A DNA stretch of 64,000 bases from Rhodobacterales bacterium HTCC2255 (GTDB lineage Bacteria; Pseudomonadota; Alphaproteobacteria; Rhodobacterales; Rhodobacteraceae). Where the stretch lies: contig DS022282.1 of NCBI GenBank assembly GCA_000153745.1, positions 1,780,816-1,844,815 of the forward strand, given 5' to 3'. The position numbers and the translations under genes were made by a program. Below are positions 145-4,942 of the stretch, piece by piece. Under the pieces are notes generated by a model. It made no database searches. It saw only the letters and a program-made list of their open reading frames with translations, and was not told the origin of the DNA. How positions within the stretch are numbered: the first letter of the stretch is position 1; each line of letters starts with the position of its first letter.

Positions 145-618
145 TTATATCTTGGCAAGACTTTGAAAAATTAGATCAACTTTATCTATTGGAATTTTGC
201 GTAAATGAATTTTACGTAATCCATTCTGGAATTCTTTAATTAATTTTTTATTTCCACCCATATAGTCTTTTATGGGCTTTACATATTCAGGGCTTGGTTT
301 GTGATAAGTATTACTCCAGTGAGCCAGATCAAATATAATAGGGACAAATTCAATAGCGGCTTCTGTAAGTGAGTAGATTTTTTTTTGAGAATGCAATTTG
401 TCATTGCTGACTGTTAGCATTCCAATATCTAGAAGTCGTTTGAGACGTTTAGCTAAAGTGGCTGAAGAGATACCCTCTAAACTTTTATTATACAACCTAC
501 TGTATGTCTGGCGATTAAGTACAGCAATATCACGTAGTATAATAATCGACCATTTATCACCGATTAATTCTGCAGCAAGTCCAATCGGGCATGCCTGGTT
601 ATTGTTGAAATCAAACAT
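145..618 (-). CDS. HxlR-family winged-helix transcriptional regulator
   Basis: The 157-residue protein has the hallmark HxlR opening: a Cys-Pro pair (ACPIG) near the N-terminus, then a winged helix with LIGDKWSIIILRDI and a recognition-helix region around SATLAKRLKRLLDIGML, and the terminal LTEAAIEFVPII segment. Such proteins are dimeric DNA-binding regulators, often sensing reactive small molecules through the N-terminal Cys. I use the internal ATG at 618 because an AGAGG sits 6 bases upstream of it, whereas the ATG at 633 has no ribosome site. The C-terminal 40 residues are longer than in minimal HxlR proteins. It is divergent from the small-protein operon at 740, with a perfect palindrome between them, and probably controls that operon and itself. 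Confidence 0.88.
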   Translation of the reverse strand: MFDFNNNQACPIGLAAELIGDKWSIIILRDIAVLNRQTYSRLYNKSLEGISSATLAKRLKRLLDIGMLTVSNDKLHSQKKIYSLTEAAIEFVPIIFDLAHWSNTYHKPSPEYVKPIKDYMGGNKKLIKEFQNGLRKIHLRKIPIDKVDLIFQSLAKI

Positions 619-651
619 ATAAAACCTCTTCATAAATAAAACTGGTATTAA

Positions 652-671
652 TTTGAAAGTATACTTTCAAA
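652..671. promoter_or_regulatory. Perfect 20-bp palindrome, probable HxlR operator
   Basis: TTTGAAAGTATACTTTCAAA is identical to its reverse complement over all 20 bases. It lies in the 121-bp gap between the divergent HxlR gene and the operon starting at 740, where an autoregulatory operator is expected. An AGTATACT core is plausible for a dimeric winged-helix protein. The binding assignment is inference; the palindrome is seen directly. Confidence 0.75.
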
Positions 672-739
672 ATTTTTTAGCAATACTATTTTTTATATTT
701 TGATAATTTAGAAATAACTTTAGAGTAAGGAGACTCATT

Positions 740-1021
740 ATGATACTTAAATTAACTCAAGATCTTTCGCGTGGTTTTGTGCCATGGAAAGAAATGTATT
801 TTGAAAATATAGCTAGACTTGAAGCAATTGGTGGTAAATTGATTTTTGCTGGTTCTGAGGCCAATGATGACAATAAAATGATGGTTATTATGGAGTTTGA
901 TTCAAAAGAAGCGTTACAAGCTTTTGGAGGAGATGAAGAGCTCAAAGCGAAAAGAGCAGCTGCGGGTGCATTATTAGAAACTACAGTTATTACTCCAATG
1001 AGTGATGAATCTTTTTATTGA
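740..1021 (+). CDS. Small protein, probable dimeric alpha/beta-barrel (YciI/ABM-like) fold
   Basis: First gene of the putative HxlR-controlled operon, 93 residues, with AAGGAG 7 bases before the ATG. The pattern is strand (MILKLTQDL), long helix (residues ~17-30, ARLEAIGGK), strand (LIFAGSEA), strand (KMMVIMEFDSKEAL) and helix. This matches the ferredoxin-like fold of YciI and antibiotic-monooxygenase-like proteins, but I do not recognise a named family and no catalytic residue is obvious. No signal peptide, so cytosolic. It is followed 10 bases later by an NTF2-like gene. Such folds often bind or oxidise small aromatic or reactive compounds; here that is only an inference from context. Confidence 0.6.
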   Translation: MILKLTQDLSRGFVPWKEMYFENIARLEAIGGKLIFAGSEANDDNKMMVIMEFDSKEALQAFGGDEELKAKRAAAGALLETTVITPMSDESFY

Positions 1022-1031
1022 GGTACTTAAA

Positions 1032-1361
1032 ATGGCAATATATGATCAATTAAATGCTACAATGGCTGATCGTGATACCAAAGCTTATTTGGATTTACTC
1101 CATGAAGATTGTGTATTTGTTTTCCACAAATCTGGTAATGAATTTTCAAAATCAGAATGGGCCGAAATGGTTACTGGAATGATGGCTAATGATAAGTTCA
1201 TTCAAGAGTCATCAAGATGTGTCTATGAAAATGACGACATTTTAGTGACACATAATTTCATGTCATACCCTGATGGAACCAGAGAAGCAGTTATGGGTGT
1301 TTCAACACTAAAAGATGGCCAAATAATTCGAATGGAAACTGGAGCAACATTATTAAATTAG
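1032..1361 (+). CDS. NTF2-like (SnoaL-type) small protein, paralogue of the gene at 4616
   Basis: 109 residues. The start at 1032 follows TGAGGT and leaves 10 bases after the previous stop; the longer open frame from 1002 overlaps that gene and has no ribosome site. It begins with a helix and DRDTKAYLDLLHEDCVFVFH, the usual entry of NTF2-like/SnoaL proteins, a cone-shaped fold used by isomerases, dehydratases and carrier-like proteins. The C-terminal half shares with the protein at 4616 the pattern RC-x-YEND-x-ILV, an EA-x-M turn, and a final RMETGAT. The two copies bracket the ABC transporter, so they are likely parts of one pathway. Substrate unknown. Confidence 0.72.
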   Translation: MAIYDQLNATMADRDTKAYLDLLHEDCVFVFHKSGNEFSKSEWAEMVTGMMANDKFIQESSRCVYENDDILVTHNFMSYPDGTREAVMGVSTLKDGQIIRMETGATLLN

Positions 1362-1373
1362 GAGAACATAAGG

Positions 1374-1724
1374 ATGGCTACAATCGAAGTAAAGAATTTT
1401 GAAAAAGATGCAGATGAAGTAAGTACGCCAAACAATGCACGCGTAGAAACTGTAAATATTAGTGGGCAAAGGGTAATGAAGCTAACTATCCAGCCGGGTT
1501 GGAAATGGTCTGATGATATCAAGCCATTAGTTGGAACTGATAGCTGTAAAGCTAAGCATTTGGGTGTAATAGTTGAAGGATCAATAACCTGTCGACATGA
1601 TGATGGAACTCAAGTCACTTATTCAGCTGGTGATGCTTACGCTATAGATCCGGGGCATGATGCTTGGATCGAAGGAGATACACAAGCTGTTGCCTATGAA
1701 TTTCATGGTGCTTGGGGCGAATAA
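1374..1724 (+). CDS. Single-domain cupin protein
   Basis: 116 residues in the small-protein operon. The sequence belongs to a widespread cupin type with PGWKWSDDIKPLVGTDSC, then HLGVIVEGSI, HDDGTQVTYSAGDAYAIDPGHDAW. Candidate metal or ligand residues are His in KAKHLG and His in PGHDAW; the classical two-His first cupin motif of DMSP lyases (DddL/Q/W/K) is absent, so I do not call it a DMSP lyase. Cytosolic, one jelly-roll domain. Lies 12 bases after the NTF2-like gene, with GGAG-type ribosome sites in the gap. Enzymatic or ligand-binding role unknown. Confidence 0.8.
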   Translation: MATIEVKNFEKDADEVSTPNNARVETVNISGQRVMKLTIQPGWKWSDDIKPLVGTDSCKAKHLGVIVEGSITCRHDDGTQVTYSAGDAYAIDPGHDAWIEGDTQAVAYEFHGAWGE

Positions 1725-1754
1725 CCAAATTTATTATTAATGAGGAGGAAAAAA

Positions 1755-2024
1755 ATGTTTGCAACATTTACTGATTGGGAATTTGAAAATATGGATGGTG
1801 CTCCAGATACTGCTCGAGGCATGTGGCCTATGATGCAAGCAGCTGGTGCTACTAGTTTCAAAGCAACTCAAACAGGAGAAAATACAGTACGAACAATGCT
1901 AACATGGCCAGATTCTGAAACTGCACAAGCAGCTATTGAAAAAATGAGAGCCACTGCCTTAGAGAAAATGCCAGGTAAAGTTGTCAGCACAACTGCTGGA
2001 GCTATAATGGTAGATCTAAGTTAA
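1755..2024 (+). CDS. Small protein, probable ferredoxin-like alpha/beta fold
   Basis: 89 residues from the ATG at 1755, chosen because AGGAGGA lies 5 bases upstream; the in-frame ATG at 1740 precedes that ribosome site and would translate it. Pattern: strand (MFATFTDWEF), helix (RGMWPMMQAAGA), strand (SFKATQTGENTVRTMLTWPDSE), helix (TAQAAIEKMRATAL), strand (GKVVSTTAGAIMVDL). This fits a dimeric alpha/beta barrel, but I know no named function. It closes the first block of four small cytosolic proteins and is followed by a terminator hairpin at 2049, so the downstream ABC genes have a separate promoter or depend on read-through. Confidence 0.6.
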   Translation: MFATFTDWEFENMDGAPDTARGMWPMMQAAGATSFKATQTGENTVRTMLTWPDSETAQAAIEKMRATALEKMPGKVVSTTAGAIMVDLS

Positions 2025-2048
2025 AGTTTGATTAGCTAAGTTATATTT

Positions 2049-2083
2049 AGAATGGGTATTTTTTTAATGCCCATTCTATTTTT
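2049..2083 (+). terminator. Intrinsic terminator after the small-protein operon
   Basis: A 12-bp stem (2049-2060 with 2066-2077, one G-T pair) with a 5-base T loop is followed by a T-rich run at 2079-2083. It sits 25 bases after the last stop of the small-protein block and separates it from the ABC transporter genes. Confidence 0.75.
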
Positions 2084-2200
2084 CCATATTGACTAATGCG
2101 TTTCATATTTTGAGAAAATATATAGAATATATTCTCCTACTAGACACCTTTTTTTGAAGTGTTATTGTAAATAAACTCAACAACAAAAAAGGTTTTAAGA

Positions 2201-3016
2201 ATGTCAAAAAAAATGATAGTTTCTGCGATCGCAATGGCGCTTTTAGCCACCAATGCATTTGCAGATGGGCACTGTGCATCTGGTAAAACACTTGAAAAAG
2301 GTAAATTCACCATAGCTACAGGGAACCCAGCTTATTTTCCATGGGTGTTAGATGATGCGCCTGAAAGTGGCCAAGGTTTTGAAGCTGCTGTAGCATATGC
2401 AGTAGCTGAAGAGATGGGTTTCTCTAAACAAGATGTAATATGGGTAAGGTCTTCATTTGATGAAGCTATTCAACCAGGTGTTAAAAATTTTGACGTAAAC
2501 ATGCAGCAATATTCCATAACATCTGAGCGAGATCAGGTTGTCGATTTTTCAGTACCATATTACACCGCTCCTATGGCTGTTTTAGTTGGTGCTGGTGCAA
2601 CAAATACTTCAGCAACAATTAAAGCTTTAAAGGGTCTGAAATGGGGAGCTGTTGGGTCAACTACTGCGGTCCAGAAAATAGGTTCAAGTGTTCAGCCAGA
2701 CAATGCGCCTTTACTGTACGCTGATAACGCAGATGTAAATGCTGCTATAACTGCAAATCAAATTGATGCTGCGATGTTTGATCTTCCAACAGCTCTATTC
2801 TTGAGTGCTGTGATGATTGAAGGATCAAAAGTAATAGGCCAGTTTCCATCTTCAGAAAGTGATAATGCTGATCAATTTGGTATGCTCATGGAAGAAGGAA
2901 ACCCTCTCAAGTCGTGCGTTGACGAAGCATTAAACACCATCACTGGAAATGGGATATTAGCATCTATTGAGGCGCAATGGTTACAGGACACTACCGGTGT
3001 TCCATTAATAAAGTAA
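2201..3016 (+). CDS. ABC transporter substrate-binding protein, family 3 (amino-acid type)
   Basis: 271 residues with a Sec signal peptide (residues 1-22, ending NAFADG), so periplasmic. The mature part has the family-3 layout: KGKFTIATGNPAYFPWV, QGFEAAVAYAVAEEMG, VKNFDVNMQQYSITSERDQVVDFSVPYYTAPMAVLV, and a hinge-crossing second lobe ending near residue 260. The SITSERD and VDFSVPYY motifs are typical of polar amino-acid and opine binding proteins. There is a Cys pair (about C25 and C247) that could form a disulphide. It is followed after one base by the permease gene. Because its operon is bracketed by NTF2-like paralogues, the ligand may be an unusual amino-acid-like compound and not a common amino acid. 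Confidence 0.88.
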   Translation: MSKKMIVSAIAMALLATNAFADGHCASGKTLEKGKFTIATGNPAYFPWVLDDAPESGQGFEAAVAYAVAEEMGFSKQDVIWVRSSFDEAIQPGVKNFDVNMQQYSITSERDQVVDFSVPYYTAPMAVLVGAGATNTSATIKALKGLKWGAVGSTTAVQKIGSSVQPDNAPLLYADNADVNAAITANQIDAAMFDLPTALFLSAVMIEGSKVIGQFPSSESDNADQFGMLMEEGNPLKSCVDEALNTITGNGILASIEAQWLQDTTGVPLIK

Positions 3017-3017
3017 T

Positions 3018-3851
3018 ATGAAAAAATATAAAGCGGCGGGAATGACCCGCCGCGAACACTATGAACAAAAACAACGACGTAAGTCGTTAATTATAGCTGC
3101 AATAAGTACAATATTTGTTGTTGTTGCTGTAATTATATTTGTCCCAATGACGCCAGGTTGGGAAAAGGTTCAAAAAAGTTTTTTTAACGCAACAGTGTTG
3201 GCTAAAACTTTTCCAAAATTATTAGATGCTTTTAAATTGAATATAATGATCTTTGCATGGTCTGCACCTGCGATAGCAGTTCTAGGGTTGATGATTGCAC
3301 TAGCCAGAGATGCAAAAGCCCCTGCTTTATTTCCATTGCGTATTTTTGGTGCTGCATTTACCGATATTTTTCGTGGAGTTCCTGTGATTTTGACAGTTTA
3401 CTTGATTGGTTTTGGAATACCGGGCTTGGGTCTTCCACGACCATGGAATTCACCGTTTATATGGGGATCTCTTGCATTAATTTTAACATATTCAGCTTAT
3501 GTTGCAGAAATTTTTCGTGCTGGCATAGACAGTGTGCATCCTAGCCAAAGATCTGCTGCACTATCGCTTGGCCTTTCTGAAAGACAAGTTATGAGGGATG
3601 TTATCTTACCGCAAGCGGTTCGTAATGTTGTTCCATCTCAGATGAATATGTTAATTGCTCTTCAAAAAGATGTTTCACTATTAAGTTTCATTGGCCCAGT
3701 GGAAATTTTTCGCCAAGCGGGAGTGTATAAATCTTTATTTGCTAATTTCACTCCTTATGTGGGGGCTGCAATAATTTTCTTAATAGTAACTATACCTGCT
3801 ACCCGATATGCGGATTATTTGATGGCACGACAAATGCGTGAAAGACGATAA
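3018..3851 (+). CDS. ABC transporter permease, amino-acid (HisM/GlnP) type
   Basis: 277 residues, with a basic N-terminal tail, a first helix at about residues 22-43 and a core of about five further helices. The coupling-helix region reads [32 protein letters not shown], with the EAA-like signature and the QxEAA-type spacing of family-3 permeases, followed by [24 protein letters not shown]. Only one permease gene is present, so the membrane part is presumably a homodimer. The stop overlaps the start of the ATPase gene in TAATG, which suggests translational coupling. Confidence 0.9.
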
Positions 3852-4581
3852 TGCAAAAATTAGAATTACATAATGTTATAAAACGATTTGGTAATAATAC
3901 AGTTTGCAACGGAATTAATCTTAACGTTGAGCAAGGACAAATGGTTTGTTTGATTGGAGCATCTGGTGCCGGAAAATCAACATTGCTAAGATGTATAAAT
4001 TTACTTGACCTATTGAAGATGGTGAGATATTTTTAGATGGAAAAGATATTTCTTTACCAGGTCTGAATCCACAAAGTGTACGATCAAAGATTGGAATGGT
4101 ATTTCAAAGTTTTAATTTATTTCCACATATGACTGCATTTGAAAATGCAATATTAGCGCCCAAGCGAACAAGTGGGTTATCAAAATCTCAACTTAATTCT
4201 GAGATTGAAATGCTCTTTGAGCGTTTTGATTTAGCTGAAAGAATGCATAATTATCCTGACCAATTGTCAGGTGGGCAACAGCAAAGGGTCGCCATTGTTC
4301 GAGCTCTTGCAATGAAACCTGAAGTTATGTTGTTTGATGAGATTACTTCTGCGCTCGACCCACAGCTTGTTGGTGAAGTTTTGGATGTTTTATTACAGCT
4401 TAAAAACCAAGGAATGACTATGGTTCTTGCAACGCATGAGATGCAGTTTGCTCGACAAGCTGCAGATAAGATATGCTTTCTCAAAGATGGAAAGATTGTA
4501 GAAGAAGGTTCAGCTACGGAAATTTTTAATCGCCCTAAAAAAGCTGCAACAAAAGCATTTCTAGCACGTGCATTAAAGTAA
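3851..4581 (+). pseudogene. Amino-acid-type ABC ATPase interrupted by one frameshift
   Basis: The first frame (3851-4036) encodes the N-terminus with Walker [10 protein letters not shown]; translation then hits a stop. The second frame continues with [15 protein letters not shown], the Q-loop (MVFQSFNLFPHMT), signature LSGGQQQR, Walker B VMLFDEITSALDP and the H-loop THEM. The frames join if one C is restored at 4009-4012, turning GACCTATTGAA into Asp-Pro-Ile-Glu. The total length (731 bases, two more than a multiple of three) fits exactly one lost base; the repaired product is 243 residues, normal for GlnQ/HisP-type ATPases. Every motif is intact, so a sequencing deletion is a good alternative to a true pseudogene. 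In Walker B the usual E appears as DEITSALD, as in this subfamily. Confidence 0.85.
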
Positions 4582-4615
4582 ATTTTATAATTCAAAAAAT
4601 AATTGAGGATATATA

Positions 4616-4942
4616 ATGCAACTTTTCAATAAATGGGAACAAGTTTGGGATAATAAGGATGCTAGGGCATTTTTAGACATGCATCATGCTGAGTTTGAAT
4701 TCCATTTTCATTCAAATGGAAGAATTTTGAAAAGAGTAGATATGTCGGTTGATATGGTTGCTGGTGTTATGAGTAAAGAAACAATTAAAAATAGACGATG
4801 CATATATGAAAATGACAAAATATTGGTGATCCATCAGTTTAACGAATTTGTAAGTGGGGATAAAGAAGCTCTCATGATTACGGTATTAAAGAAAGATGGA
4901 TTGATGTGGAGAATGGAAACTGGCGCAACGGAAATCAAATAA
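4616..4942 (+). CDS. NTF2-like (SnoaL-type) small protein, paralogue of the gene at 1032
   Basis: 108 residues, with GAGGAT about 6 bases before the ATG. It shares the helix-first NTF2-like start (WEQVWDNKDARAFLDMHHAEFEFHFH) and the C-terminal pattern RRCIYENDKILVIHQF, EALMITVLKKDG and RMETGAT with the protein at 1032, but has diverged elsewhere; compared with the 1032 protein the catalytic-pocket candidates His/Asp/Glu differ in part. It is the last gene of the transporter block and converges on rapZ 15 bases later. Having a second copy at the far end of the transporter suggests two related steps or a heteromeric protein. Substrate unknown. Confidence 0.7.
   Translation: MQLFNKWEQVWDNKDARAFLDMHHAEFEFHFHSNGRILKRVDMSVDMVAGVMSKETIKNRRCIYENDKILVIHQFNEFVSGDKEALMITVLKKDGLMWRMETGATEIK

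Follow-up and report, generated by a model that had tools for sequence, protein, structure and literature searches.

An HxlR-linked set of small cupin, NTF2-like and barrel-type proteins in a Rhodobacterales genome, and its possible place in a marine cassette family

A window of 64,000 nucleotides from Rhodobacterales bacterium HTCC2255 (contig DS022282.1) carries, at positions 145-4942, a regulator gene, four small genes (A to D), an ABC transporter (E to G) and a last small gene (H), which are the subject of this work. The open reading frames (ORFs) lie at the positions and in the order given in an earlier note on this DNA. The HxlR-family regulator (145-633) is encoded on the minus strand, divergently from A; it carries Cys15 in an N-terminal CP motif and exceeds the PF01638 cut-off (E 7e-11, 42.3 bits vs 20.8). 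A strandless, perfect 20-bp palindrome, TTTGAAAGTATACTTTCAAA, its probable operator, lies between it and A at 652-671. All further features are on the plus strand. A (740-1021) is a small DUF3764-like protein and probable dimeric alpha/beta barrel, B (1032-1361) is NTF2/SnoaL-like with conserved His, Glu and Arg residues, C (1374-1724) is a cupin and the signature protein of the cassette, and D (1755-2024) is a small protein, possibly a barrel. Judged by eye from ribosome-binding sequences, 1032 and 1755 are most likely the starts of B and D. Next come an intrinsic terminator 3′ of D (2048-2078), a 13-pair stem with a T-rich tail, and a site resembling a promoter for the transporter operon (TAGACA-16-TATTGT, 2141-2168). 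They are followed by E, a family-3 substrate-binding protein (SBP; 2201-3016, PF00497 SBP_bac_3, E 2.9e-19), F, a polar-amino-acid-type permease (3018-3851, PF00528 BPD_transp_1, E 2.8e-16; TIGR01726 above cut-off), G, an ABC ATPase in two frames (3851-4581), and H, a second NTF2-like protein (4616-4942) 34 bp 3′ of the ATPase.

The window was compared with two relatives, Rhodobacteraceae Water_Bin34 (L065), whose contig ends within the ATPase gene, and an Amylibacter metagenome-assembled genome (MAG; L066), which begins at B. Values of dN/dS ranged from 0 to 0.164 over 14 comparisons of nine genes (0.03 for A against L065, 0.07 for H against L066), so that these genes are real and constrained and do not arise by chance. 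Concerning their families, B passes the DUF4440 cut-off (33.2 vs 25.2 bits) and is homologous to H (36% identity over 107 aa), while C and H fall below Pfam cut-offs by sequence. Predicted structures assigned a cupin fold to C and an NTF2/ketosteroid-isomerase fold to B. For A, matches to DUF3764, DUF1330 and Dabb were all below cut-off, the best being DUF3764 with E 0.0026, and the best match of D was DUF1428 with E 0.13; hence A is probably a dimeric alpha/beta barrel, a fold that is unproven for D. A mention of DUF3764 concerns a Prochlorococcus-like plasmid contig (PMC10434023).

The gene content proposed in the earlier note was thus largely borne out: the regulator, B, E and F pass Pfam models, the NTF2-like and cupin assignments of B and C were confirmed by predicted folds and H is indeed a paralog of B. 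Of the two barrels it had proposed, A is the probable one, and its single ATPase turned out to be two frameshifted pieces.

The model of B shares its fold with SnoaL and ketosteroid isomerase, and is similar to chains of SnoaL-like proteins, ketosteroid isomerase and epoxide hydrolase; it differs from them in having 10-15% identity and its own invariant residues, His, Glu and Arg in the family alignment. The model of C shares the cupin fold with TM1459-type and DddK proteins, at 12-22% identity. The classical cupin motif reads G(X)5HXH(X)3,4E(X)6G / G(X)5PXG(X)2H; in contrast, an 18-sequence alignment of the present family keeps C58, H62, H95 and D96, and by eye the HXH pair and with it the classical metal motif are lost. 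PDB sequence searches with the cupin, the NTF2-like protein and A returned nothing convincing. A role of C as a dimethylsulfoniopropionate lyase (DddK) was considered and rejected, the match being one of fold only and the metal motif not being kept.

We then examined the boundary between D and E. Folded alone, the 2048-2078 hairpin had a z score of -6.84 against shuffled sequences; L065 and L066 have hairpins of other sequence at the corresponding position, with z scores of -5.84 and -3.18. The TAGACA-16-TATTGT site 5′ of E is identical in the three genomes. From the hairpin and the promoter-like site in three genomes, A-D and E-H probably form separate transcription units, with H probably part of the transporter operon. 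Two points tell against this separation: counts over the whole scan were at chance level (three terminator-like hairpins vs 3.2 expected, 17 promoter-like sites vs 19.8 expected), and the top-scoring promoter-like site lies within D (1981-2008). Since the scans stand at chance level, it is the conservation across three related genomes that carries the separate-unit argument.

The recurrence of the small genes was examined by scanning genome contigs with the cupin alignment, which gave 130 confirmed relatives; the best 80 were retained as loci. By title, 66 are Pelagibacterales (SAR11) and the rest are Rhodobacterales, SAR116, other alphaproteobacterial MAGs and one Pseudomonadales MAG. An NTF2-like gene lies within 2.5 kb of the cupin gene at 73 of the 80 loci (65/66 in SAR11, 8/14 in the others), with a median gap of 19 bp; A-type proteins occur at 20 loci and D-type at 4, and relatives of D were found in L046, L065, L066, L071 and L072. 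A sample of 385 genomes of the class had the cupin in 16, the NTF2 family in 11 and both in 6, where 0.46 would be expected (hypergeometric P 8e-7, kinship ignored). In three of these six genomes (G000, G224, G451) the two genes are adjacent and in the other three they are on separate contigs. As a raw count, genomes with stronger cupin matches (E below 1e-28) are below 3 Mb in 10 of 11 cases. The window's own 2.3 Mb genome holds three strong NTF2 members inside 7.8 kb (P 4e-5 under random placement), which local duplication could equally account for, and one weak match elsewhere (E 0.005). A third NTF2-like protein (L145, 7999-8772) is encoded about 2 kb upstream of the window and is followed by a 137-aa membrane-type protein, relatives of which also occur near the cupin in SAR11 and SAR116 loci; beyond the regulator the same locus shows, by eye, an SLC13-like permease.

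Similar small neighbours accompany some NTF2-like genes away from any known cupin. Among 11 such strong loci they were recognised at six (L197, L200, L202, L203, L205, L207) and a recurrent 128-aa neighbour at L201, while none was seen at L198, L199, L204 and L206; these calls were made mostly by eye, with Pfam support for L200 and L205. In L200 a protein that looks A-like by eye exceeds the DUF3764 cut-off (34.3 vs 24). Of eight GYD genes in 12 genomes chosen for having cupin or NTF2 hits, four have a cupin or NTF2 gene within 2.5 kb, a limit which, like the 4-kb limit used below for HxlR in the same genomes, was chosen after inspection of the data.

We next considered whether the transporter belongs to this set. 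SBP_bac_3, BPD_transp_1 and ABC_tran domains in the adjoining genes E, F and G place them among the polar amino acid ABC transporters (PAAT; LAO/EhuD-like); no substrate-specific NCBIfam model listed for E, F or the ATPase pieces was matched above its cut-off. The ATPase is encoded in two pieces (3851-4036 and 4096-4581), a one-base difference in alignment with two relatives, with the frameshift between 4003 and 4096. Because it is intact in L066 and in frame over the part present in L065, the frameshift points to an assembly error or to a recent lesion. Matches to the SBP at 59-77% identity occurred in 35 other genomes among the 196 of the taxonomic order that were searched. Using tblastn we examined the surroundings of the transporter in 13 of these genomes and at one locus with a 40% relative: none of the 14 carries a relative of A-D, H or HxlR within the sequence around each, two loci (L056, L063) starting near a contig end with one side unseen. 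Nine of the 14 were read gene by gene; their neighbours vary and gave no common substrate hint. At L053 the transporter follows, by eye, an MttB-like methyltransferase and an FAD oxidase, a possible substrate hint absent from the other eight. Reciprocally, no SBP or permease relative was found at 78 of the 80 cupin loci, 17 of the 80 being covered by less than 4 kb on one side. One genome (G140) holds cassette and transporter on separate contigs, that of the transporter beginning within the SBP gene.

These results bear directly on the reading of the earlier note, in which all genes form one HxlR-controlled block, E-F-G importing an amino-acid-like compound that A-D and H convert. In L065 and L066 the cupin group also adjoins E-G, in the latter with H as well, and H is a paralog of B within the transporter unit. 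Set against this are the terminator hairpin and promoter-like site dividing D from E in three genomes, the 14 transporter loci without any relative of the cassette genes and the 78 cupin loci without the transporter. A single operon including the transporter was rejected on these grounds, and a joint import and conversion block now appears improbable. Only the window genome, L065 and L066 showed the two groups side by side, and the transporter looks like a separate evolutionary unit; counting it as a partner was an error of boundary. The earlier note took co-occurrence in other genomes as its test: HxlR, cupin, NTF2-like protein and several of the small families do occur together elsewhere, whereas the transporter joins them only in L065 and L066.

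Neighbours were then clustered over ORFs within 5 kb at 82 loci and the window. The SAR11 loci contain recurrent small families of 94 aa (52 loci), 103 aa (32) and 96 aa (25), a GYD-like family (29 loci; one member with Pfam E 3e-6, below cut-off) and DUF1330 proteins (10 loci; one member with E 5.7e-31); a barrel-type fold for several of these is unproven. A DsbA-domain family occurs at 39 SAR11 loci, its L107 member matching 2-hydroxychromene-2-carboxylate (HCCA) isomerase (2imd, E 4.7e-13), and an SMR-type family at 62 (one member checked). Elsewhere composition differs from locus to locus. L045 combines a double DUF6854 protein, MAPEG, cupin, NTF2 and a divergent HxlR gene; L046 has an SCO4226-like protein and a protein of cytochrome c type in which two stretches were matched; L169 has HxlR, DUF3303, GYD, an ABM-like protein (below cut-off), DUF1330 and a cupin with an in-frame stop; and L173 encodes two cupins together with DUF6854, a 111-aa product that no Pfam model matched and a weakly SCO4226-like protein. 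Rhodobacterales bacterium LSUCC0387 (L144), by its name presumably a cultured strain, carries A, cupin, NTF2, HxlR and, by eye, a DUF6854-like protein; the 16 kb examined there contain no relative of the transporter. Proteins resembling maiA or glutathione S-transferase (GST) are encoded at L167 and L172 and a PIG3-type quinone oxidoreductase at L073, all below cut-off.

The HCCA isomerase-like, GST-like, MAPEG, quinone-oxidoreductase-like and SMR neighbours would favour reactive-compound handling over amino-acid catabolism; several of these glutathione-type and efflux labels are below curated cut-offs, and they support a direction without naming a substrate. The same folds could be read in another way, as a catabolic or tailoring set of cyclase- or isomerase-type proteins acting on a phytoplankton-derived ring compound, aromatic or polyketide-like, and not as detoxification. 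The likeness of the NTF2 model to SnoaL-like, ketosteroid isomerase and epoxide hydrolase chains fits such a role, as does a Rieske-oxygenase-like gene immediately upstream of the cupin gene in L067 (all models below cut-off). HCCA isomerase, a GST-kappa-like enzyme, acts in naphthalene degradation, which counts in the same sense; the match is that of the SAR11 neighbour L107, and the window cassette has no such gene. No other naphthalene-pathway gene was recognised by eye in three SAR11 loci read. Neither the clusters nor the loci read showed a ring-cleaving or large core enzyme that accompanies the cupin in different lineages, and we regard this alternative as rather unlikely.

Some further neighbours were observed. 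Genes resembling cysK lie beside cupin genes, upstream of them in SAR11, and immediately 3′ of distant cupins in L049 and L175; the one checked, in L049, is above the NCBIfam cysK cut-off, and a thiol link is possible. Proteins of L046 (9383-9856), L144 (7071-7544) and a SAR11 158-aa family look secreted and show by eye glycine motifs like those of dirigent proteins and allene oxide cyclase; no Pfam match supported a family for the periplasmic proteins of L046 and L144 or for the SAR11 family. The window's genome encodes a second cupin (L047, 7659-8030) of a longer-tailed subfamily, beside a polA-like gene and without barrels; this subfamily adjoins small barrel-type proteins in L167, L169, L170 and L173. 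Distant cupins (32-34% identity) in L048 and L050 stand beside an HxlR relative and beside what looks by eye like a truncated-globin gene, the L048 product of which gave nothing with NCBIfam. A phage origin was set aside, since one scan of viral contigs with the cupin gave no relative. Transposase- or integrase-like genes were seen by eye near the cassettes of L046, L164, L169 and L200, which makes horizontal movement plausible.

Turning to the regulator, the window HxlR protein is the sole match of its family in its genome at E <= 0.001. Among the 12 genomes chosen as above, six of 14 HxlR genes, found in six of the genomes, lie within 4 kb of a cupin gene, against 0.05 expected (P 1e-11); these six belong to two families only. 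The Cys of the N-terminal CP motif is kept in all 10 HxlR proteins aligned. The palindrome gave one match in the window at up to three mismatches, with 0.01 expected, its 14-bp core has no other exact match in the genome and L065 retains 19 of its 20 bases. By eye, the second near-palindrome of the genome seems to stand beside a 16S rRNA end. The word ACTGGT/ACCAGT, also found by eye, occurs at about 642-647 of the window and in the divergent HxlR promoters of L071, L072, L169 and L170; it could be part of an operator or chance.

YodB-type regulons of Bacillus subtilis offer a comparison: YodB is of the MarR/DUF24 family, which we take to be the HxlR family, and its targets are azo- and nitroreductases. 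Such regulons resemble the window in having an HxlR-family regulator with an N-terminal Cys, divergent targets and, in the window as a candidate operator, a palindromic site; they differ in that the window targets are cupin, NTF2-like and small barrel-type proteins, and Cys sensing here is a prediction. In YodB, quinones alkylate Cys6, which lies at the N-terminal end of a helix, with release of DNA (PMC8063818).

We tentatively favour the view, plausible if short of probable, that A-D form their own HxlR-regulated operon and belong to a modular family of marine small-protein cassettes handling reactive organic compounds. It starts from gene content, purifying selection, the terminator hairpin, the palindrome and recurrent linkage; beyond these we infer repression by HxlR, Cys sensing, an enzymatic role and the substrate class. 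According to this model, HxlR probably represses the divergent A-D genes at 652-671, and its N-terminal Cys would sense a reactive organic compound of quinone, enal or epoxide type, upon which HxlR would leave the operator. The small proteins, each with a pocket and a few acid/base residues, would bind the compound and isomerise, hydrate or scavenge it. In other genomes they may act alongside efflux proteins and glutathione-type enzymes whose genes belong to the cassette or adjoin it. The transporter and H would be an adjoining, separately transcribed unit, and A-D one member of a cassette family of cupin, NTF2-like and small, partly barrel-type proteins found mostly in small-genome marine alphaproteobacteria. 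Alternatively, the small proteins might not be enzymes at all and serve as ligand-binding buffers or sensors, for instance of haem, flavin or quinone. The invariant His, Glu and Arg of the NTF2 family and C58, H62, H95 and D96 of the cupin look catalytic or metal-binding as judged from the alignments, and we regard such a role as unlikely.

Several observations weigh against the favoured view. An N-terminal Cys is common among HxlR proteins generally, and neither a counterpart of the palindrome nor a shared HxlR operator was found at nine other HxlR loci. HxlR is absent from four of the same 12 genomes and present only elsewhere in two; no relative was found at the 66 SAR11 cupin loci, thus HxlR is not a universal regulator of the cassette. 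Seven of the 80 cupin loci lack an NTF2 gene nearby: one in SAR11 and six of the 14 others. The SAR11 neighbour counts, being partly plain synteny, represent few events and are not independent. Glutathione-type and SMR neighbours vary by lineage and are absent beside the window cassette, and the differing compositions could mean different substrates.

The regulator and small proteins singled out by the earlier note are nevertheless a real recurrent set. No description of the gene set was recognised in the literature searched, and the cassette is probably undescribed. With somewhat more reserve, we consider it possible that it represents a widespread marine module consisting almost entirely of single-pocket proteins of 90-120 residues (cupin, NTF2 and small barrel-type families) jointly processing one class of reactive or ring compounds that bacteria of the ocean often encounter, retained even by SAR11-type bacteria with genomes of 1.3-1.4 Mb and under HxlR control elsewhere. 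Few ocean bacteria are as numerous as SAR11 and its neighbours, which retain very few dispensable genes; small pocket proteins recurring there hint at a common seawater compound or stress, and the cassette, which extends beyond one genome, is a compact set open to testing.

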